From positions 1-40,798 of IMG/VR virus record IMGVR_UViG_3300023118_000003: DNA of 40,798 bases. The stretch is one strand, 5' to 3'. The notes beneath the pieces are model-generated. The model saw nothing but the letters and a program-made list of their open reading frames with translations, searched no databases and was not told the DNA's origin. This DNA comes from a virus. The translations under genes were made by a program, and so were the position numbers. Shown in pieces: positions 8,964-40,798 of this stretch; within the stretch, counting starts at the first letter, position 1, and each line of letters starts with the position of its first letter.

Positions 8964-11099
8964 TTAGCCGTAGTATGTATTTAACCGTTCCATGTCGCTA
9001 CCTATGCCTACCAGCACCCGCTGCACCTGTGTTGCCCGCGTGCTTGGCTCGCTGAGCAGCTTTACCGGTAAACCGGTATAAACCTCTCCTTCGATCGTAA
9101 ATTCCATTACCCTAAGCGGATCGGCTGCCAGTTCATCGGGAATAAATACATCTTTGGGCGTTTCGAAGTCAAGATAATGCATTTGAAAATAAGGTGTATC
9201 AAGTTCGCCAATTAAAACGTTGGATTTTTCAGCTATCCCCCCGCATGCCATGTCGGCGTTTTTGGGTGCGCTCTGAAAAACAATATACGAAGTGTCCATT
9301 TTATCGCAGCAGGAGCGAATGAATGAGCCGTTATTGAGCAGGCACCGCTTAACGCTTAACCGTAAATTAAATACCGTATCTGGTTCAATAAGGCCGGTAG
9401 CGGTAGGGTTTAGTGACCGGTCGAGCTTGTAGTACCCCGGTATGGATTGTATTGGTGGCTGCAGCACCGTTTCAACATCGAGAACATATACCTCATTATC
9501 CTGGTTGCTATTCGTTGTGGTTTTATCAAGGAACTCAGCGCGTACCAATTCTGATGAGTAGCAATCGGCTATTACATCGGTAGTGATATCAAGCACTTTC
9601 GGAGCCCGCAGCGCATCAGGTATGGAAAATTCGAAGGTATTACAAAAGGCCTGTTTGCCATTCACGCCTTCAACCTGCGTGTCCGGATAACCTATTTTTA
9701 TGGAATTAAATATTTTGTCTGCAGGCACGGTTACTACAGGGCTGCTAACCTCTCCGAGCTGTGTGCGTACGCCATAATCCACCATATCGGGCTGCCGCTG
9801 CATTGTTATTAATCCAGCCACGTTGGCTCCTATACCAGCCCGCTGAAAGGTTAGCCAGAAACTAAAAAACTTTCTTAAGGACAGTTTAACCTTCGTACCG
9901 TCAACGCCCCTTATGCCATCGCCCGAAGTGAAAATAATATTGCTCCAGGTTGTTAGCAGCCCGGAAACATCGGTTTTATATTTACCGTCAGTTATGCGCC
10001 GTATAAGTTCCGAGAAAAGGTAGCCCGGGCGAAATCCTTTAACATACGTAGTTGATCGGCGCGTTATGCTGAGTATGGAAAACTTACTGTTTTCCGTAAA
10101 TTCAACAGCCGGGTTGCCTGAGGTGGCCGCAAATATAGCTTCACTATACAGCCTGTCGCCGGGATTGAGCGTTATGGTAATATTGAAATCGGAGCCCTGC
10201 GTACCGCCTACGCTGAAATTACTTTGAAATACCTGGTAATCGTTCTGCGTGGGTATAGTGCTGCTGCTCGTTAAAAAGCGGCGGCGAAGACCACCCGGCG
10301 GCGAGGTCTGCCTTATGCCAAGTATTTCGGTACGGCCTACAAGGTTAATATCTACCGGGAAATCATTGAAGTTCTGCAGCAGGCAGTTGGTTTGGCTTAT
10401 TTTATCCGGAAAAGACAGCGAGGAAACATTTTGCAGGGATTGTGTTTGAAAGTCAAGGCCAACGTTATCCCCTTCTTTGTTCAGGTATGCCGTTGGGGTA
10501 AAACCCTGGTTGCCCACGGCTGCCCCGCTAAATTCTACACCGTCAAGGTCTTGGTAGTTAAGTTTCTCATGCAGGCGTATGCCGTCCATTTCCACGTAAA
10601 CGATATTGCCAGCGGCCAGGGCTGCGGCATCGTCAAGATCAAATTCGTAAGTGGTATTGTCATTTGCCTTTATATATTTAGCAAAACCCCCTTCGAGCAG
10701 GTTGGCGGTCACCTGGAACCCGGCATGGCTATAAGTGCTGAGATCAATATCAGCCCGGAATATCTCTTTGTACCAAAACCCGAAATCAGTGCCATTGTAA
10801 TCCAGCCGCCTCTCCATTATAACCATCTGCACATCGGCATTTACACCCCCGCCGTTGCGTATTGCCTTCAGTATGCCCGCGCCATCCCTTACAAATTTAA
10901 AAGGTATTGTTATGGACCGGTCAATGCCAAAATACAGGTCGTTTCGAACATTTTCAATGCTCAGCTCCCGCCATCCATCCGGGGAAAATTCCAGCGGCAC
11001 CGGCTGAGTGTTAAGGACCAGCGACCCGTTTACAAGCTTGTAAAACTTGTAGTTTTTATCCTGTAAAAAGTATAAATATTGGTGCTGCCCAAATATCAT
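8964..11099 (-). CDS. large tail-tip/baseplate protein (711 aa)
   Basis: This is the first gene after the tape measure, where siphophages place the distal tail protein and tail hub. The N-terminus (FGQHQYLYFLQDKNYKFYKL, then PLEFSPDGWRELSIE) is followed by alternating beta segments throughout, with a Cys-containing part near residues 590-630 (RCLLNN, RSCCDKMD, ADMACGG). No lysozyme or peptidase motif was recognised. Stop and start of neighbouring genes are adjacent (tape measure ends at 11100). The role is likely structural in the tail tip and host contact, by position. Confidence 0.75.
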   Translation of the reverse strand: MIFGQHQYLYFLQDKNYKFYKLVNGSLVLNTQPVPLEFSPDGWRELSIENVRNDLYFGIDRSITIPFKFVRDGAGILKAIRNGGGVNADVQMVIMERRLDYNGTDFGFWYKEIFRADIDLSTYSHAGFQVTANLLEGGFAKYIKANDNTTYEFDLDDAAALAAGNIVYVEMDGIRLHEKLNYQDLDGVEFSGAAVGNQGFTPTAYLNKEGDNVGLDFQTQSLQNVSSLSFPDKISQTNCLLQNFNDFPVDINLVGRTEILGIRQTSPPGGLRRRFLTSSSTIPTQNDYQVFQSNFSVGGTQGSDFNITITLNPGDRLYSEAIFAATSGNPAVEFTENSKFSILSITRRSTTYVKGFRPGYLFSELIRRITDGKYKTDVSGLLTTWSNIIFTSGDGIRGVDGTKVKLSLRKFFSFWLTFQRAGIGANVAGLITMQRQPDMVDYGVRTQLGEVSSPVVTVPADKIFNSIKIGYPDTQVEGVNGKQAFCNTFEFSIPDALRAPKVLDITTDVIADCYSSELVRAEFLDKTTTNSNQDNEVYVLDVETVLQPPIQSIPGYYKLDRSLNPTATGLIEPDTVFNLRLSVKRCLLNNGSFIRSCCDKMDTSYIVFQSAPKNADMACGGIAEKSNVLIGELDTPYFQMHYLDFETPKDVFIPDELAADPLRVMEFTIEGEVYTGLPVKLLSEPSTRATQVQRVLVGIGSDMERLNTYYG

Positions 11100-16699: not shown

Positions 16700-17227
16700 T
16701 TAACAATTGGACTTGTTTTTTATGGTCAAGACCAAACCACTGATGTGCTTACAATCAAAGATATCGTTAATGAAATCCTCCTGTTGCTCCTTGCCCCAAT
16801 AATACCTATCGGTTACCCGGTGCGAAATGCCATCGAGCGTGTTCTCATTAAGGTATTTGCTGAGGCGCACCTGGTTCATTAAGGCGTAATAGATGGGATC
16901 GATAACCGGTTTGTAGTTATTCTCCATTCTCTGCGGAGCCTTCCATTCTTGTTGGCTGCCGTTGATAATGAATAATTCCAAACCATTAGCCACCCCATAG
17001 GCAAGGGAATCGGACCGGGTGATGGTAAACGGCTGTACAAGCCATAGCATCGGGTATTTTCCGGCCGCAAATGATCCACCCGCCCTGCTGTCCTGTATCA
17101 AATCCTCCTTAATTTCTGAAAGATACCCGTACTTGTAATTAAGTACAGGTATCGACAGTTGAGCTTTTACCAGCTGCGAAATTTCGGCGAAGATATCGGT
17201 CAGGTAATATGGTGGATTGTTAATCAC
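16700..17227 (-). CDS. head-tail connector-region protein (175 aa)
   Basis: GTG start; the start overlaps the upstream stop as GTGA, so the two genes are coupled. The protein is rich in Tyr and Asn at its start (INNPPYYLTDIFAEISQLVK), with a mixed alpha/beta pattern and a short Cys-containing end. Its position between the DUF6712-like connector gene and the major tail protein is that of a tail terminator or connector protein, but the family is not recognised. Confidence 0.65.
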   Translation of the reverse strand: MINNPPYYLTDIFAEISQLVKAQLSIPVLNYKYGYLSEIKEDLIQDSRAGGSFAAGKYPMLWLVQPFTITRSDSLAYGVANGLELFIINGSQQEWKAPQRMENNYKPVIDPIYYALMNQVRLSKYLNENTLDGISHRVTDRYYWGKEQQEDFINDIFDCKHISGLVLTIKNKSNC

Positions 17228-17733
17228 AGTCCCAGGGTGTTTATTGGTTTGAATGGGTTGCCTACCGGGGCGCTATACCCGTAGGCAGCGCTGTTGGCAT
17301 ACAGGTACGCATTGCATGAACGCGCTATAGTCATAGCCTCATTCCATGCCCGAGCCTGCTTGTCGAGGGAAGATACCGCCAGTCCTTTTTCGGAAACCTT
17401 CTCACCGCTGCCGGTGGTCATGGTAACCTGGTCACGAATGTACCAATAGTACACGTAATCAAGGATGCCGGTAACAATACCCCCGTAAGACTGCGAATTA
17501 CCGTACAGATCAGTATATGGCGATCCGCTTCGAAGCAGCAGCCACTTTGATTCTATAGGGTTAGCAGCAAGCCCCGCTACAAACGCTTCGGAAATCGTGA
17601 ATCCCAGCACTTTGCGCAGGTATTCAGGCTCGTATTTGTTGATAAAAGCCTGAACCTGCGCGGCGACATTCGCCTGCTCGGTCTGCGCAATAGCAACCTG
17701 CCCAATGAACTGTGAAGGAGCAACGATTGACAT
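17224..17733 (-). CDS. head-tail connector/adaptor-like protein (169 aa)
   Basis: Helical protein whose layout (Q..INKYEPEYLRKVLGF near the N-terminus, then YGGIVTGILDYVYYWYIRDQ, then RAWNEAMTIARSCNAYLYAN) resembles a connector group seen in Bacteroidota phages and prophages (DUF6712-like). Such proteins bind under the portal and open the path to the tail. It follows the capsid genes and precedes the tail genes. The name is given from memory of the pattern and needs a profile search to confirm. Confidence 0.7.
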   Translation of the reverse strand: MSIVAPSQFIGQVAIAQTEQANVAAQVQAFINKYEPEYLRKVLGFTISEAFVAGLAANPIESKWLLLRSGSPYTDLYGNSQSYGGIVTGILDYVYYWYIRDQVTMTTGSGEKVSEKGLAVSSLDKQARAWNEAMTIARSCNAYLYANSAAYGYSAPVGNPFKPINTLGL

Positions 17734-17972
17734 TACTTATCTTTTTCTGCTTTAGGTTCAGCAGCTGTTGCCTTGCCGGTTTCGATGAGCTTCTCCGCCA
17801 GCGCCGGGTGTACTTCCATTGGTGCGCCCTTCTTATGGGTGGCCTTGAGCTTGTCGGTAGCATACACCGTGGTAACCTCGAAAGGCTTAACCTCTCCGCG
17901 TGCTGCAGCTGCATCATCTCCGGCTTTCATTATTTTCGGATCTTTTTTGTCCGAGTTAAAATCCTGTGGCAT
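17733..17972 (-). CDS. small head-region protein (79 aa)
   Basis: A Lys/Glu/Ala-rich protein, predicted largely disordered at both ends, with a short core (FEVTTVYATDKLKATHKKGAP). Location right after the major capsid gene fits a head-decoration or connector accessory protein. Its stop overlaps the next gene's start. It is 27 bases from the capsid gene. No family recognised. Confidence 0.6.
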   Translation of the reverse strand: MPQDFNSDKKDPKIMKAGDDAAAARGEVKPFEVTTVYATDKLKATHKKGAPMEVHPALAEKLIETGKATAAEPKAEKDK

Positions 17973-17999
17973 AAAATATAAATTTTACTGTGTTGAAAA

Positions 18000-19313
18000 T
18001 TATGGTTTCAGAAGCGCGGCTTTCACGGTGGCGAAAGATGCTTTTACAAATGAACCAATGTTGTTTGTCGCAATCCAATCCAGGAAATACGTTTCCACAA
18101 TGATACGCAGACGGTTGGTGTCGAAATCACTTGATACCGCAGTAACGTTACCGCTGGTAATAGTGTAATCGATACCGTAGCCAATACGCACGGTGATTGG
18201 TTCTTCTTCGATCTTAAACAGGCCGGCTTCACCCAAAGTGAAGGAACCAATTGTTTGATAGGTTGAAGTCACTACGCGGAAGCCCATCATGCGTGTTTCG
18301 CCATCCGGGCCAACCATTGGGATCATGGTGTAGTACCTGCCTTCGTTATCTTTCAACAGCGCCAGCCTCCACTTGTCCTGCGGGTGCAGGATAAGCACAT
18401 CGGGAGCGAAGTTTAAGGTTTCGATCTGCGCAGCTACAGCGCCAATGGCATCGTAATCGTTAGGCGCTACAACAGTATCATCCAGGGTGGTACCAGTGTA
18501 ACCAGCAGCCTGAGCGTTCAGGTCGGTAACCAGCAAAGCGGCGTAATCACGCAGCAGCTTGTCATTGATCAGGCGCTTGATGATCGTGTAGGCTTCTTTG
18601 CGGAACTTAACAAATTCTTCAGTTACCACATACTTACCGGCAATCTTCTTGGCAGTGGCAAAGTTGCGCACGAGCGAAGTTGAAACCAGCGGCTTCAGGG
18701 CTCCTTCAGCAACAATCGCAAACGATCCCTGCTCAGATCCTTCTTCCAGCCATGTTTTGTATTGGGTAACCTCATCTACCACAGTACGGTCTGCAATGTC
18801 GTAAATGAACTGATCACCCCGGCGCTTAGGCACGAAATCAGCCATGCTCATGCTCTCGATCAGAGCTGCAGGGATGCTGTTCGTGGTTTCATCGATGGTG
18901 TTGGCCAGCGTCATGTTTGCAGCTGCGCGAACGTTCAGGTTTACGATATCCTGCTTCATAAGGCCACTGCCTTTACTGCGCATGGCCAGTTCTACGCGGT
19001 CCCACGCAGATTGCGTTTCGCCTTCAGGTACGGTGCGCATAGCGTCAAGGATAACGTTTGTTTTCTGCTCAGCAATAGTGCCGGCACGTTGGTTGATTTT
19101 TTCTACTTCTCCAGCCAGTTTTTTGAGGCTTTCGGAGGTGCCTGCAGCGTCAAAGGCTCGCAATGCTTCCAGGTTCAGGCCTTCCATCTGTGCTGAAAAA
19201 AGTGCTTTCACAGCGTCAGCGTTCTGGTAACCTCTTGTGTTTATCTCATCCGAGGCCGCTGCCTTCATTTTGGCAATAAGCGCGTCGTGAGCTTGTTGTT
19301 CTTCCGGTGTCAT
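18000..19313 (-). CDS. major capsid protein, HK97-type (437 aa)
   Basis: The first ~120 residues are helical and charged, like an HK97-type delta/scaffold domain removed by the prohead protease. The main domain starts around VPKRRGDQFIYDIADRTVVD, with the E-loop-like and spine-helix region (KKIAGKYVVTEEFVKFRKEA) and a P-domain with NFAPDVLILHPQDKWRLALL, a common HK97-fold signature. The C-terminal part (GYGIDYTITSGNVTAVSSDF) is the axial/late beta region. It is preceded by protease and portal genes in the usual order. It forms the icosahedral shell. Confidence 0.9.
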   Translation of the reverse strand: MTPEEQQAHDALIAKMKAAASDEINTRGYQNADAVKALFSAQMEGLNLEALRAFDAAGTSESLKKLAGEVEKINQRAGTIAEQKTNVILDAMRTVPEGETQSAWDRVELAMRSKGSGLMKQDIVNLNVRAAANMTLANTIDETTNSIPAALIESMSMADFVPKRRGDQFIYDIADRTVVDEVTQYKTWLEEGSEQGSFAIVAEGALKPLVSTSLVRNFATAKKIAGKYVVTEEFVKFRKEAYTIIKRLINDKLLRDYAALLVTDLNAQAAGYTGTTLDDTVVAPNDYDAIGAVAAQIETLNFAPDVLILHPQDKWRLALLKDNEGRYYTMIPMVGPDGETRMMGFRVVTSTYQTIGSFTLGEAGLFKIEEEPITVRIGYGIDYTITSGNVTAVSSDFDTNRLRIIVETYFLDWIATNNIGSFVKASFATVKAALLKP

Positions 19314-19314
19314 G

Positions 19315-20076
19315 TTACTTTAAATTTTGAGTTAAATAATTAAAATTCAGCCCGGTCGCATCCGGCTTCTGCCCATTGAGTGTGTTGTTGCGGTGCTCAC
19401 CCGGCTCAATGTTTAAAAGTGTCTTATGACGGGAAAATATATGTCTTGCCTCCAGCTGCTTAGAGCGCGGAAGGCTTTGAATGAAATCTTCTGTATCATC
19501 ATGGAGCAATTCAATACTTTCTTTGCTACGCATGGCATAGGTTTCGCTGTCAGCTCCTATAGTTACAATACTACCCTCAAACAGATCAATTTCGAGCAGT
19601 ACCAGGGAATCGTCTTTATCATCGTATTCGATCTTATCCCATACATAGTCAAAACCCACAGAGAACTGGTTTAACGTTCCGCTACGTATCTGCTTTATTG
19701 CACGGTCCGCACTTGGTACATCATCCAAGGGCGCCGTTTCAAAATATAGTCCGTAATCATCCTCAACCAGCTTTGCAAATAAGGCAAGCGGGTCGTCCAT
19801 CCGGTGCTGCCACAGGAAGGTTATCTTATACTTTGCCTGGCTTTCTGGTCCACGCTCCCTTATTGATTTGGCACAGGCACCTTTAATCACCTTTTCGCCG
19901 AACATATTTTTTTTACCCCATACAATAAGATATCCCGCCAGAATACGTTTATCCAGCATATCCGCGGCATTTGTTTGTAACTCCCCGCGCTCATTAACCG
20001 ATACGGTTCCGTAGGATATGGGAGCGGCGCGTTGCTTAACTTCCGCTATCTTCTGTTGTAGTATCTGCTTTGACAT
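19315..20076 (-). CDS. prohead protease, HK97/U35-type (253 aa)
   Basis: A serine protease that cleaves the capsid delta domain during maturation. Visible catalytic parts are His91 in FLWQHRMDDPLA, Ser139 in NQFSVGFDY, and an acidic residue in LEIDLFEGSIVTIGAD (probably Glu167), matching the His-Ser-Glu arrangement of this family. The first 40 residues are a basic helix, and the C-terminal ~60 residues are a charged tail possibly used for scaffold binding. It overlaps the portal gene by 41 bases and is one base from the capsid gene. Confidence 0.9.
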   Translation of the reverse strand: MSKQILQQKIAEVKQRAAPISYGTVSVNERGELQTNAADMLDKRILAGYLIVWGKKNMFGEKVIKGACAKSIRERGPESQAKYKITFLWQHRMDDPLALFAKLVEDDYGLYFETAPLDDVPSADRAIKQIRSGTLNQFSVGFDYVWDKIEYDDKDDSLVLLEIDLFEGSIVTIGADSETYAMRSKESIELLHDDTEDFIQSLPRSKQLEARHIFSRHKTLLNIEPGEHRNNTLNGQKPDATGLNFNYLTQNLK

Positions 20077-21490
20077 TGCTTACTGTTTTAAAATTTACTA
20101 TTGTCTTTACCTGCGCTATCTCATCTGGTGTCAGGTCAAGTATTTTTGTTTCATATAACCTGCCCACCCCTGGCTCTCCTTCCACGGCTTTGATCCAATC
20201 GTTTAATGTCCACACGGAGTTTAACCACCGCTGCATGTAAACCTCTCCATTGGTGCGGTCCACGGTAGCCTTATCCTTACGGTTATCCTGCAGCACACCG
20301 ATATGAGAAAAGTCGGCTTTAATATACCTGCGCGAATCGCCAAACTTGAACCCGTTGGTAAACAGGTCGGCATATTTCTGCGCATGGGGCATAATTGTGC
20401 CGGTGTAAAATTCTTTTTTGTCAGCATCCACATTGTTGAATGTGCTGCTGTCTTTTGATGGCACCATGCTGCGCGGCATCCCAAGCACTGAGTATATTGC
20501 CACAGCGTCCGATAGCGTTTCATCAAAAGGTAGCATTTCGGCTATACTCATGGTGGTGCGCTCGAATGTGATAGGTATGGATGTAAGACCTACTGTCAGT
20601 CGGTTACCCGTCACGCCGTAATCTTTATTTACCTCCTCAGCTGCCTGCTTTGTTTCAGTCGGGGTAAGGGCTATATTGCCGCTTGCGTCGGTTTTCTTCG
20701 ATACCCACACGCCCATAGCACCACGCTTCAGGTAGATAGATCCACGTGCATCGTAAACGGCAATCAGGTTTTTTATGGCCTTGTCTGCCCCAGCGAGTAA
20801 AGATTTTGTTTTATTGAGATCGATCTGCTTATTGCAGATATCAAGGTGCACGAGCGGAATAACCTTGTCTACCGGGAATATGCGGCCCGGCATTGAATAC
20901 TTTGTAACGTAATCGGATAGTTCCGTTGCACTGTAGGGGTCTAATCCCGGCTTCATGTGAGCGTTAACTGCCTTGCCGCCTGGTAGGTTATACCAGGAAA
21001 GAGCGCTGCGGTAGTCGCTGCCAAGTGTGTCGGGCCGGTTGATGTAGAACAGGTTGCGGCCGGTGAGTATTTCGATAACTACAGCTGAGTATACCAGGTC
21101 CCGCATTGTTTCCAATGGGTTAGGCTGCGTGAATAGCCTGTTAAAATCCTTGTCTGTGTAGATAGCCTCATCATCCATGAAGCGGCACATCTTCCAGTTT
21201 GCATCACTTACGGCTTTGGCGTATGTATGCACCGCGCTGGTTACTTCAGGGAGGCAATAAAAAAGGGAAGCGTAATCGAAAGAGTTCCAATGTTGGAAGA
21301 AGTTGTTGAGTTTTGCTACGGCGGCGGGCTCATCCTCGGAATACTCGTAGTACGGGCCTTCGCGGTCTACGAAAACCTTCTCCGGGATATTGTAGTTGCG
21401 CTCGCTAAGCATAGGCCCACCTATTGATGGGCCTACAATTCCAGTAATGAAGTTATTGAAAAATCCGCTCAATATTTGTTGAATGACCAC
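20036..21490 (-). CDS. portal protein (484 aa)
   Basis: GTG start at 21490. The protein has the HK97-like portal pattern: an N-terminal alpha/beta wing (FQHWNSFDYASLFYCLPEV), a stretch with TQPNPLETMRDLVYSAVVIE, and a helical stem with VYSVLGMPRSMVPSKDSS, typical of portals before the crown. It forms the dodecameric ring through which DNA is packaged and to which terminase docks. The order portal-protease-capsid supports the call. The leader contains a short ACCAC/GTGGT hairpin overlapping the start codon. Confidence 0.88.
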   Translation of the reverse strand: MVIQQILSGFFNNFITGIVGPSIGGPMLSERNYNIPEKVFVDREGPYYEYSEDEPAAVAKLNNFFQHWNSFDYASLFYCLPEVTSAVHTYAKAVSDANWKMCRFMDDEAIYTDKDFNRLFTQPNPLETMRDLVYSAVVIEILTGRNLFYINRPDTLGSDYRSALSWYNLPGGKAVNAHMKPGLDPYSATELSDYVTKYSMPGRIFPVDKVIPLVHLDICNKQIDLNKTKSLLAGADKAIKNLIAVYDARGSIYLKRGAMGVWVSKKTDASGNIALTPTETKQAAEEVNKDYGVTGNRLTVGLTSIPITFERTTMSIAEMLPFDETLSDAVAIYSVLGMPRSMVPSKDSSTFNNVDADKKEFYTGTIMPHAQKYADLFTNGFKFGDSRRYIKADFSHIGVLQDNRKDKATVDRTNGEVYMQRWLNSVWTLNDWIKAVEGEPGVGRLYETKILDLTPDEIAQVKTIVNFKTVSNVKADTTTEDSGS

Positions 21491-24873: not shown

Positions 24874-25302
24874 TTACACCCCCTTTCCCGGTTTTCCAAA
24901 AATAGTTGCTATGATGGCCTGGCCCTCGGGTAAGGTGCGGTAAATGTGACGGGTTGCACCTTCAGCGGCCATTATTTCGCCCCACTCTTTTTGCCCGTAC
25001 ACCTTTTTCCCATTTACAATACGGTCCACGGTAAGTTGGCCGTTGCCAAACTTTGTTTCAATGATGTGAAACTTCCCCTGATAGTAGGCGTGCAGGTCCC
25101 AAACGCCGCTGAGCAGTCCAGTTGCTTTCAGTAAGGCTGCCTGCACCGGGTTACGCTCTGCCCCATTAGGTACTGCCCACATCTTTCGGCGGTGTTCCGG
25201 GTAAGCATTCCAGTACCATTGGTACAGTTGCGCCTGTAATTGGTCTTCGTTTTTGGGTCCGGTAACCAAATCTAAGGTTCCGGTAACTTTTTTATTTTCC
25301 AT
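24874..25302 (-). CDS. VRR-NUC domain nuclease (142 aa)
   Basis: A stand-alone PD-(D/E)XK-type nuclease of the VRR-NUC group. Seen are an early helix with DQLQAQLYQWYWNAYPEHRR, the sequence AVPNGAERN, then GVWDLHAYYQGKFHIIETK, which holds the catalytic Asp and the E-x-K pair. Phage VRR-NUC proteins are thought to cut branched DNA such as Holliday junctions or flaps. Next to the terminase it probably resolves branches before packaging. Two copies of the GGTWACC repeat, one exact and one with a mismatch, lie in its 5' coding part. Confidence 0.85.
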   Translation of the reverse strand: MENKKVTGTLDLVTGPKNEDQLQAQLYQWYWNAYPEHRRKMWAVPNGAERNPVQAALLKATGLLSGVWDLHAYYQGKFHIIETKFGNGQLTVDRIVNGKKVYGQKEWGEIMAAEGATRHIYRTLPEGQAIIATIFGKPGKGV

Positions 25303-25536
25303 AACTGATTGATAATGTGTAAGGTAACCCGGTAACCAAAAAAAGGCCCTATTTAATACTACTGCGGGGTAAAAAATAATTTACGATCGATGTAATTTTT
25401 TATTTTTATTACTCTCTATTATTTAATATTTCTACATTATATAATAAGAAAATAGTGGTTACCAAGGTTACTTAATTGATTAATAGGGTTTTATAGTGGT
25501 TACCAAAAGGTTACCGGTAACCGCAAAAAGGTTACC
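25261..25536. other. candidate replication origin: inverted GGTTACC repeat arrays flanking an AT-rich core
   Basis: The 7-mer GGTAACC occurs at 25261, 25322 and 25330 and, in the opposite orientation (GGTTACC), at 25457, 25498, 25509 and 25530, with one GGTAACC at 25516 forming a back-to-back pair. Near copies start at 25282 and 25466. Between the two groups lies about 90 bases of very AT-rich sequence (25360-25450). The region has no gene and sits immediately downstream of the primase-helicase gene. Inverted repeat arrays around an AT-rich core beside a primase are typical of phage origins. A terminase binding site (pac or cos) is the main alternative. Confidence 0.55.
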
Positions 25537-28003
25537 GGGTAGCAGTGAATAGCTTCCCTTTGGTATTAACAGGGGTCTTTTTCTGGTAATTATTCTCGAA
25601 TTTAGCTCCGTGGTGATCACAGTATGCCGCAATAGCATCGTATATTTTCTTAGCCCCGGGCTGATACGATTTTGGTACATTGTTTTCATCATAATAGGTG
25701 AATAGTTGCTTTTTAAAGTCTTCGTTGCTTACCCATCCCGATTCCATCCAATCGCTGTAATTCTCAGTAATGAACTCGGTTATATTCGATCCGTAGGTCT
25801 GCTCAAACTGCTTTTGCCACCCGCCGCTGGTAAGTATAGGGGAGCTTAATTTTCGTTCTGCTTTTAGCCACGCCTGAGCTGCCAGGGCCATAAAAGTATC
25901 GTAGCCACCCCAATCTTCGGCGGTCCAGTCGTTGGGGAAGTGGCAGCCCTTATAGTATGCATCAACGCCACCGGAACGTGTGAAGAAGTCGGTAAATTCT
26001 ATTGGCTTAATGCGGCGCTTAAGTCCGCCGTCTTTTATTTCGTAGCTGAAATTAGTGGATATTAAAAACTTGCACATCTGGTCCGGGGTGATGATGTACT
26101 CGTTTATAAAAAGCTTTTTCATAACGCTGCTGCCGGTACTGAGCTCTTTTAAAAATGAGAAATCAAAAGATTTTGGCACATCGCTTACGCAAAATATTTT
26201 TTGAAAGTTCCATGACTGCATAAAGCGCTCATCGTATTTTACCTGGCTACCCGGCTTGTTTAGTATGCTGGTTATCCGGCTTAGCAGGCTGCTGAAGATG
26301 TTTTTTCCGCTACCACCCCCGTCTTTTGGATTCGGGCATTGCTCACTGAGCACTACAATATAGCCGGCAGTTTCGTCTTTAAATTCATGCACAAGGTATC
26401 CAACGGTCTGCAACAGGTATTCGCTGAGGCCGATAGCTTTTTCTATGAAGTCCACAAATTTACCAGCATCGCACTGAATATAATCCCGGGAATGTATGGC
26501 TGAAGACCAAACGAGGCGGTTAGGCGGGTATTCCTGAAGTTCATAGCCTGTAGCCGTTGTAAGTAGCATGCCATTGTTGTAAAATTTATAGCATTCTGTT
26601 CGGGTATCTTCAATAATATTTCCGGTCTGCAGCAGTTGCAACCGGCTTATGGTGAACTTACCATGCCGCTCTATAAAGGCCTCATAAGAATTGCAGATAC
26701 GTATGTATTCGTCGCCGTCCTCCTCACGGATGTAATCTTTCATTGCATCAAAGAAATCGCGCGGGGTGCGGTTGTAGATAAGGTTGGCAAGTATTTGCAC
26801 GGGTTCATCGTTGTGCACCTTATACCCCAACCCATCGGCCACGGTATAAAGCCGTTCCCGGTCAATTTGAATGGTACCTTTCTCTGGATCTTCAAACCAA
26901 AATATACCGTGTGGGTGATCAGTAGCCATCTTTTGACTTATAGCAACATGCAAGGCGGCGGCGTGCGGGCTGGCATTTGGCGGCAGGTTACGGCCGGCAG
27001 CTGCTGTTTTTTTGGCTATGCGCTCTTCAACCTGCTGTTTTATCCGGCCGTAACCCCGCTGTACGAGGTAAGCATATGTTTTTTTACGGTCGCCCCCGTG
27101 AGCAAGCGTGCTGAGTAGGATGGCAGGCGTATAACCGTGGCTTTCTTCCAGTTCAGTACTGGAGGTAAAGCAATAGAAAAATCGCTTTTCGGTATTGAAC
27201 GACATAGATATGCCGGTTGTTTTACCTGGCCGCGTGTACCAACGGAATCTACCGCGCTCTTTACACAGTTCCCATCCGAGCTCGCTGGCCAGGGTATCGG
27301 GATTGCAGGTGGCGTTAAAGTGTTCAAAGGGATTTTCATCATAGTACTGGTTATCATGCTGGGTGGGCTTGTACTCTTTCTTTATCGTTACAATCCGGCT
27401 GAAAGACTTGCAAAGACTTATAAGACTTGCCCGGTCTGCCTGGCTAATGGTTGGTATTGGACGGTCAAAATGTACGCTGTAGCCCATAGCAGGCGGTGCC
27501 ACAACGTAACCGCCCTCACCACGGGTTTCGATGAAGTTATAAGTCTTGTTCTTTGGGCGCAGGGCAAGTTCCGCATCGTCAGCAGGACGTCCGGCAAGTT
27601 TATTATTACCCTCTACACCTTCGGCGCAGCGGTATAGTATATGATACCCGCCTGATGGCGTTTTGTGAATACGCAAGATTGCCCACAGTTCCGGGTAAAG
27701 CTCCGAAATAGCGGTAAACAGATCCGCATCTACTCCGGGCAGGTACTTCACATCAATATCAATAATCTCAAGGTTACCCGATACCTTGCCGCCAATAAGC
27801 CCCACGGCGTTCGTATTGTTTTCCTCCATCTCAAACCATAGCTGTTGCTCGGTTATATGTTCCCGCTGGTACTTTTTCCACCCGGTACCGTAGGGTGTTT
27901 TGGCCTCGCGTTTTTCGTCGGGCTTGTCGCGTACCGGGATAACGCTTACCCCATTCTCTAAATAATACTTAACCTGCTGCCATACGGCTTGTAGTGTGCT
28001 CAT
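25532..28003 (-). CDS. bifunctional prim-pol/D5-like primase-helicase (823 aa)
   Basis: Main replication protein. The N-terminal ~200 residues form a prim-pol domain: VSVIPV and TPYGTGWK near residues 19-42, catalytic-type IDID (Asp82, Asp84), GGYHILYR with His121, and ETRGEGGYVVAPP near 159-171. Residues about 350-480 contain an origin-binding or D5_N-like linker. The helicase part carries Walker A DGGGSGKN (residues 561-568) and a Walker B-like IFCVSDV, followed by STGSS. It makes primers and unwinds DNA, as in plasmid- and phage-type D5 proteins. Its 3' end runs into the GGTTACC array, so the gene and origin candidate are adjacent. Confidence 0.9.
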   Translation of the reverse strand: MSTLQAVWQQVKYYLENGVSVIPVRDKPDEKREAKTPYGTGWKKYQREHITEQQLWFEMEENNTNAVGLIGGKVSGNLEIIDIDVKYLPGVDADLFTAISELYPELWAILRIHKTPSGGYHILYRCAEGVEGNNKLAGRPADDAELALRPKNKTYNFIETRGEGGYVVAPPAMGYSVHFDRPIPTISQADRASLISLCKSFSRIVTIKKEYKPTQHDNQYYDENPFEHFNATCNPDTLASELGWELCKERGRFRWYTRPGKTTGISMSFNTEKRFFYCFTSSTELEESHGYTPAILLSTLAHGGDRKKTYAYLVQRGYGRIKQQVEERIAKKTAAAGRNLPPNASPHAAALHVAISQKMATDHPHGIFWFEDPEKGTIQIDRERLYTVADGLGYKVHNDEPVQILANLIYNRTPRDFFDAMKDYIREEDGDEYIRICNSYEAFIERHGKFTISRLQLLQTGNIIEDTRTECYKFYNNGMLLTTATGYELQEYPPNRLVWSSAIHSRDYIQCDAGKFVDFIEKAIGLSEYLLQTVGYLVHEFKDETAGYIVVLSEQCPNPKDGGGSGKNIFSSLLSRITSILNKPGSQVKYDERFMQSWNFQKIFCVSDVPKSFDFSFLKELSTGSSVMKKLFINEYIITPDQMCKFLISTNFSYEIKDGGLKRRIKPIEFTDFFTRSGGVDAYYKGCHFPNDWTAEDWGGYDTFMALAAQAWLKAERKLSSPILTSGGWQKQFEQTYGSNITEFITENYSDWMESGWVSNEDFKKQLFTYYDENNVPKSYQPGAKKIYDAIAAYCDHHGAKFENNYQKKTPVNTKGKLFTATR

Positions 28004-30321: not shown

Positions 30322-30984
30322 TTATTTAAATAGTAATTGTTGTGCTGTTTGTTCTTTGAACCGCTTACAGGCGGCGGTATAGTAATCGGCATCCAGTTCG
30401 CATCCTACGAAGTCAAGACCAGCCCTATGCGCCGCAATCGCGCTGGATCCGCTGCCTAAGTGGGTATCGAGGATGCGGTCACCGGGTTTGGCGTAATTGT
30501 CAAATATCCATTTATAAAGTCTAATCGGCTTTTCTGTTGGATGGATCCGCACTTGTTTATCTTTCATGTCATGCTGTATCATGCCATTCCATGTACTTTT
30601 AAACATCCTCAATCCTCGATTAAAGGAAGACCAAGCTAGTTCGCAGTCGCTGAAGTTATTATCACCATTGTCTTTATCCCAAACTATCCAGCCAGAACTT
30701 TGGGCTAAATTATTAGTAAAATAATTCCCACCCCAAACGATTTGATTCTTACTTACTCTAAACAACTCACTCCAGTAAGCATCTGAAGGTATATTTAAAT
30801 CCCAGTCTTTTGATGCATAGTTTTTCTTTTTTGCAGCGGCATTGCCATATTGCTGGCCAGCCATTTTACCAGCTTTATTTGCATGATTTATCCCATACGG
30901 CGGATCTACTACGGCCAAATCAAACGCCTTATCCGGCAAGGTGGCCATGTAGGCCATACAGTCGGTGTTTAGCAGCTCTATCAT
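30322..30984 (-). CDS. site-specific DNA methyltransferase, N4/N6 type (220 aa)
   Basis: Catalytic DPPY (residues 27-30, VVDPPYGINH) lies near the N-terminus, and the SAM-binding motif ILDTHLGSGSSAIAAHRAG lies near the C-terminus, the order of beta-class amino-methyltransferases. A HPTEKP box precedes it, as is common in this family. No partner restriction enzyme was seen nearby, so it is an orphan enzyme, probably protecting phage DNA from host restriction or marking it. It is coupled to the upstream gene by an ATGA overlap. Confidence 0.88.
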   Translation of the reverse strand: MIELLNTDCMAYMATLPDKAFDLAVVDPPYGINHANKAGKMAGQQYGNAAAKKKNYASKDWDLNIPSDAYWSELFRVSKNQIVWGGNYFTNNLAQSSGWIVWDKDNGDNNFSDCELAWSSFNRGLRMFKSTWNGMIQHDMKDKQVRIHPTEKPIRLYKWIFDNYAKPGDRILDTHLGSGSSAIAAHRAGLDFVGCELDADYYTAACKRFKEQTAQQLLFK

Positions 30985-40649: not shown

Positions 40650-40749
40650 GGACGGGTGGCGAAATTGGTAGACGCAGCACTTTTTTGTCAATGTGTCGCC
40701 GGGAAGGGAGGCCCGGAGTGAATTGCAGGTTCGAATCCTGCCCCGTCCA
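40650..40749 (+). tRNA. leucine-type tRNA with abnormal anticodon arm (spans circle junction)
   Basis: Acceptor GGACGGG (40650-40656) pairs fully with CCCGTCC (40742-40748), discriminator A. The D arm TGGCGAAATTGGTAGACGC is leucine-type, and the T arm is perfect (GCAGG-TTCGAAT-CCTGC). The anticodon arm does not fold normally: only GCAC/GTGT (with a G-T pair) can pair, leaving a loop of about 10-12 bases rich in T (TTTTTGTCAA) in place of seven. The variable region is about 28 bases with a CCGGG/CCCGG stem. Total length of 100 is long for a leucine tRNA. No anticodon can be assigned; it may be a suppressor, a non-decoding tRNA-like element, or degraded. Confidence 0.7.
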
Positions 40750-40798
40750 CTCTCATAATCAGCAGTTTTGGTAAACACGGCGGTTGTAGTCTTACATG
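40672..40798. repeat. 127-bp terminal direct repeat, right copy
   Basis: Exact copy of bases 1-127. See the left copy for interpretation as a circular-contig overlap. Confidence 0.95.

Follow-up and report, generated by a model that had tools for sequence, protein, structure and literature searches.

The DNA analysed here, called the window, is the full 40,798-nucleotide viral record IMGVR_UViG_3300023118_000003. The record is that of a tailed phage, circularly closed, with matches to terminase, major head and tape-measure proteins; a 127-bp terminal repeat at both record ends (1-127 and 40672-40798) indicates the closure and a probably complete genome. The repeat holds GCAGGTTCGAATCCTGCCCCGTCCACT, which resembles a tRNA 3' end and is possibly an attachment site, and ARAGORN found no whole tRNA over the window. 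On the minus strand, the genes follow the order DEAD/ResIII helicase, PrimPol-helicase, a repeat array, a VRR-NUC-type gene, TerS and TerL. The VRR-NUC-type gene also has annotated VRR-NUC proteins from phages of Flavobacterium, Cellulophaga and Nonlabens among its matches. An N6/N4-type DNA methyltransferase gene lies at 30322-30984, upstream of the primase gene. The features of the array and its flanking genes are collected in Table 1.

Table 1. Features of the repeat array and the adjoining genes (positions in the window)
Feature	Positions	Strand	Remarks
VRR-NUC-type nuclease gene	24874..25302	-	phrog_824 (3.9e-19); starts at left arm
Whole iteron block, proposed replication origin	25259..25538	.	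10 copies in mirrored arms; layout shared with relatives
Left iteron arm	25261..25337	-	Exact GGTAACC (minus orientation) at 25261, 25323, 25331; near copy GGTAACT at 25282
IHF-consensus site TATCAATCAGTTA (assumed consensus WATCAANNNNTTR)	25302..25314	-	Gap between iterons 25282 and 25323
AT-rich core, proposed unwinding element	25338..25456	.	119 bp, 21% GC
Right iteron arm	25457..25536	+	Exact GGTTACC (plus) at 25457, 25498, 25509, 25530; exact GGTAACC (opposite orientation) at 25516; near copy GGTTACT at 25466
Weaker counterpart AATCAATTAAGTA, partial consensus match	25469..25481	-	Gap between iterons 25466 and 25498; read from the sequence
Primase-polymerase/helicase (823 aa), proposed initiator	25532..28003	-	Pfam PF09250 Prim-Pol (2.1e-14); PHROG DNA polymerase/primase (5e-47)
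C-terminal winged helix, codons 739-823, proposed iteron reader	25535..25789	-	From AlphaFold model
Codons 774-817, third helix and wing	25553..25684	-	Strongest covariation of segment identity with the repeat word

All of the eight exact and two near 7-mer copies that the original prediction had placed in 25261-25536 were found on recounting. The window holds 22 copies of the 7-mer against 4.6 expected, a total that none of 100 shuffles reached. Multi-copy matches spaced by gaps no longer than 25 bp number three, with an expectation of 0.00; both results bear out the earlier view that the clustering is far above chance. GGTTACC/GGTAACC is also the most clustered 7-mer in the whole window. The predicted opposition of the two arms was likewise seen, with the copy at 25516 as the one exception. 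Because the 7-mer is palindromic save for its central base, the orientation call depends mainly on that base. Measured from the outer ends, the copies are spaced in a mirrored fashion, at 0, 21, 62 and 70 on the left and at 0, 14, 21, 32, 64 and 73 on the right. The two leftmost copies (25261 and 25282) fall within the reading frame of VRR-NUC and the rightmost (25530) overlaps the stop codon of the primase-helicase gene, so that the array abuts this gene as predicted and the block is not purely intergenic. Outside the array, 14 more GGTTACC/GGTAACC copies lie within genes between 2888 and 33194, seven of them at 16811-20608; coding sequences hold 15 copies, of which one belongs to the array, where synonymous shuffling predicts 6.7.

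The DNA enclosed by the arms is AT-rich, as originally described: the GC content of the core compares with 39-54% in the genome's 1-kb windows. As single-stranded DNA, the array folds better than shuffled sequences (z = -2.43 over 291 nt), a value for general folding over that length; in an origin of the pRN1 type, a conserved stem-loop of ~100 nt lies downstream of the gene. This gain is what would be expected if initiation proceeded from a hairpin fold, the mechanism proposed for pRN1, and the repeats merely supplied the complementary arms; a stem-loop is essential in pRN1 and has been proposed in phage BIP-1, in each case immediately downstream of the PrimPol-helicase gene (PMC4234260). However, the gain is modest and any inverted array yields some pairing, while the presence of counter-oriented copies within an arm and the word-specific covariation described below argue for protein recognition of each copy. 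We therefore regard hairpin initiation as most unlikely, and recognition of the copies by a protein as the preferred reading.

The candidate for such a protein is the adjoining primase-helicase. Its AlphaFold model (pLDDT 88.5) gave Foldseek matches to AsfvPrimPol, the SaPI5 primase-helicase and D5/E5, with the SaPI5 primase-helicase (7ola) ranking among the best fold matches. The modelled winged helix consists of H739-755, E757-759, H760-773, H784-797, E800-807 and E815-821.

Similar arrays with other words were first sighted in TerL relatives. Primase alignments were then used to collect loci of two families, the PrimPol-helicase relatives (PrimPol family) and another primase-helicase family, which carries DUF3987 (DUF3987 family), and a C-terminal winged helix was modelled by AlphaFold in both. 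A scan of viral contigs using the window primase as a single query returned no relatives, although the alignments did find them, and a search for close isolated phages found none for either initiator family. An array was defined as at least six exact 7-mers in 350 bp, a threshold that was set after the data had been seen and whose false-positive rate has no formal calibration. With this threshold, the array adjoins the primase-helicase gene in 28 of 48 non-redundant PrimPol-family loci. The automatic count was 25 of 48 (array 0-1.5 kb downstream), to which three loci were added by reading: L024 and L177, where coding triplet repeats had masked 6 and 8 downstream copies, and L035, where the array spans the gene end. 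Three further arrays lie 1.5-6 kb downstream, and L027, L029 and L033 carry a full array upstream of the primase instead. No cluster of at least six exact words was found in 13 of the 48 loci, and one locus had too little sequence. In the DUF3987 family, the array stands beside the gene in 23 of 25 loci (21 downstream and 2 spanning the gene end), and among distant relatives (28-31%) in only 1 of 16. A second separate cluster of at least six copies was present in 4/48, 0/25 and 0/16 loci of the PrimPol family, the DUF3987 family and the distant relatives, respectively, and two of these four are the very arrays already counted downstream of the gene in L024 and L177. In most array-bearing loci, the strongest k-mer cluster sits just behind the primase-helicase stop codon. 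L027 also has, besides its upstream array, 11 tandem copies of CGCTACAA at 9466-9582, ~0.9 kb downstream of the primase.

The original prediction had named conservation in related genomes as a check, and most relatives that keep the primase indeed retain the array, its inverted layout and its AT-rich core with a different word. The repeat word differs by lineage (e.g., TCGTTACA, CTGTAACA, CTAACCAC, TTGTGCAA and AAGTTTCA); GTTAC is common to many of the words, though not to all. Arm inversion exceeded that of label shuffles in both the PrimPol family (158 vs 75.7 ± 11.2) and the DUF3987 family (159 vs 56.8 ± 9.8), and the two half-arrays had opposite majority orientations in 19 of 30 and 16 of 19 arrays, respectively. 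The median array span was 312 bp in the former and 287 bp in the latter, and the cores of well-formed arrays were mostly 13-28% GC. The AT-rich cores of L011, L013 and L016 contain the palindrome TGCAATCGATTGCA or GCAAACGTTTGC and, further along, AATAGGGG; the window core has a weaker form of these motifs.

The longer gaps between iterons often contain another element. Matches to WATCAANNNNTTR, which we take to be the IHF consensus, are enriched about tenfold in the arrays (17 vs 1.6 expected in the PrimPol family and 11 vs 1.0 in the DUF3987 family). In the window, TATCAATCAGTTA touches the VRR-NUC start codon. From their sequence, these sites may be bound by a host protein; a literature search for an IHF-like factor in Bacteroides gave no hit. 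The palindrome TGATWATCA is also enriched in relatives' arrays, with 11 occurrences in 11.5 kb of PrimPol-family arrays vs 7 in 328 kb elsewhere.

To relate the repeat word to the protein, word similarity was compared with the identity of protein segments in a partial Mantel analysis that left aside the final residues, whose codons can overlap iterons. Corrected for identity in the rest of the protein, a procedure that removes relatedness only partly, the covariation peaked at residues 774-817 in the PrimPol family (partial r = 0.373, p = 0.0002) and at the recognition helix, residues 736-748, in the DUF3987 family (r = 0.398, p = 0.0002), where residues 581-630 also gave r = 0.18 (p = 0.04). 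This covariation gives strong support, short of proof, for the winged helix as the putative reader of the word, and suggests that the C-terminal end of the primase-helicase reads the repeats. VRR-NUC did not covary with the repeat word (r = -0.07, p = 0.74) and was rejected as the repeat reader.

The same comparison bears on two other functions of the array. It could be an operator or enhancer of the VRR-NUC/terminase operon, where a regulator bound to the repeats controls the late-gene switch. The VRR-NUC gene does start at the array and encloses two of its copies, and VRR-NUC is present in 24 of 26 PrimPol-family loci, generally a few hundred bp beyond the array start. Nevertheless, in the DUF3987 family the array stays behind the primase-helicase while the downstream gene changes, three PrimPol-family loci have the array upstream of the primase, and it is the primase C-terminus, and not VRR-NUC, whose identity tracks the word; moreover, an operator has no need for a large AT-rich core between inverted arms. 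An operator alone is thus improbable; the array may have a dual role in origin function and autoregulation. A packaging site, whose repeats would be bound by the terminase small subunit, is highly improbable. Although the TerS gene begins ~400 bp from the array and cos/pac sites often lie near terS, several ORFs separate the L002 array from the terminase genes, varied genes follow the array in the DUF3987 family, and, of the primase-helicase and VRR-NUC, it is the primase that covaries with the word.

The 280-base block is very probably the start site of phage DNA copying; the candidate origin of the original prediction is supported by the retention of the array in relatives and by the covariation of word and winged helix. 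The cumulative GC skew, which had been proposed as a further check, gave no support for an origin: it has no turning point at the array and reverses near 34 kb, where gene direction switches. Also counting against an origin are the 13 PrimPol-family loci without an array, its absence from most of the distant relatives, the PrimPol-family half-arrays, which oppose each other in only 19 of 30 cases, and the excess of copies in genes. We consider it highly likely that the block is an iteron origin, that its iterons are bound by the phage's own primase-helicase via the C-terminal winged helix, and that its core is melted. We infer origin activity, with protein binding, bending, melting, helicase loading and priming, along the following lines. 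Several copies of the primase-helicase, arranged as two mirrored groups, would attach to the GGTTACC iterons by this winged helix, and a host HU/IHF-type protein would bend the gaps within the arms. The complex would melt the AT-rich core, each arm would receive a D5-like helicase ring, and priming would fall to the N-terminal PrimPol domain.

A broader proposition, on which our judgement is evenly poised, is a phage-wide origin code, in which the layout is fixed across two primase-helicase families and the word and the recognition helix change together. The layout of this code would consist of inverted iteron arms, often with one counter-oriented copy, bend sites in the arms and an AT-rich core, and here too belief and doubt weigh about the same. 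If the code is true, each phage lineage has a private and predictable origin specificity. If the origin reading is right, the array is a recognisable origin signature in many uncultured phages and each word is tied to a short stretch of the protein, which makes specificity readable and testable; it also raises the question of why the word turns over rapidly under a stable layout.

Our literature searches found no origin of this kind for these phages, including Bacteroidota phages. The original prediction did not know the repeat as a described origin element, and this holds for the word itself, which is undescribed, but not for the kind of element, which is known from SaPI/PICI and pRN1. The relevant passages of PMC7581432 describe SaPI origins as lying directly downstream of rep, consisting of iterons and being read by the Rep C-terminal domain; in these and in the corresponding passages of PMC6092414, the SaPI/PICI initiator is a helicase that in some cases carries a fused primase, and its gene is followed directly by the origin. 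The window likewise has a primase-fused initiator helicase (PF09250, with SaPI5/D5-type fold matches) and a block made of iterons, which begins at the initiator stop codon as in most relatives, three having it upstream. The counterpart of the origin-reading SaPI/PICI C-terminus would be the winged helix, as the model and the covariation suggest. The window differs in that its primase belongs to another family, PF09250 PrimPol, and in the IHF-consensus boxes of its arms, which the passages of PMC7581432 and PMC6092414 at hand do not mention for SaPI/PICI. A PICI, furthermore, is a satellite that needs the structural proteins of a helper, whereas genes for a terminase and a major head protein lie in the window itself, which indicates a self-sufficient phage; an element equipped in this way for structure and packaging is not a PICI.

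The α protein of satellite phage P4 is similar in that a single protein fuses primase and helicase and has a cognate ori. P4 α binds its origin through a winged helix, while the P4 iterons and the ori/crr arrangement differ from those of the window, and P4 is a satellite. In pRN1, ORF904 combines a PrimPol, an SF3-type helicase and a winged helix in one protein, and the origin is directly downstream (PMC4234260). Like pRN1 and BIP-1, the window has a protein that unites PrimPol, helicase and winged helix, and its candidate origin follows the gene directly; it differs from them in that their origin is described as a stem-loop, whereas the candidate origin of the window is an iteron array with identifiable words; origin sequence motifs of PrimPol-helicase replicons have been called not yet identified (PMC4234260). 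On our best reading of these comparisons, the window origin would work like the SaPI/PICI and P4 origins, but on self-sufficient phages.
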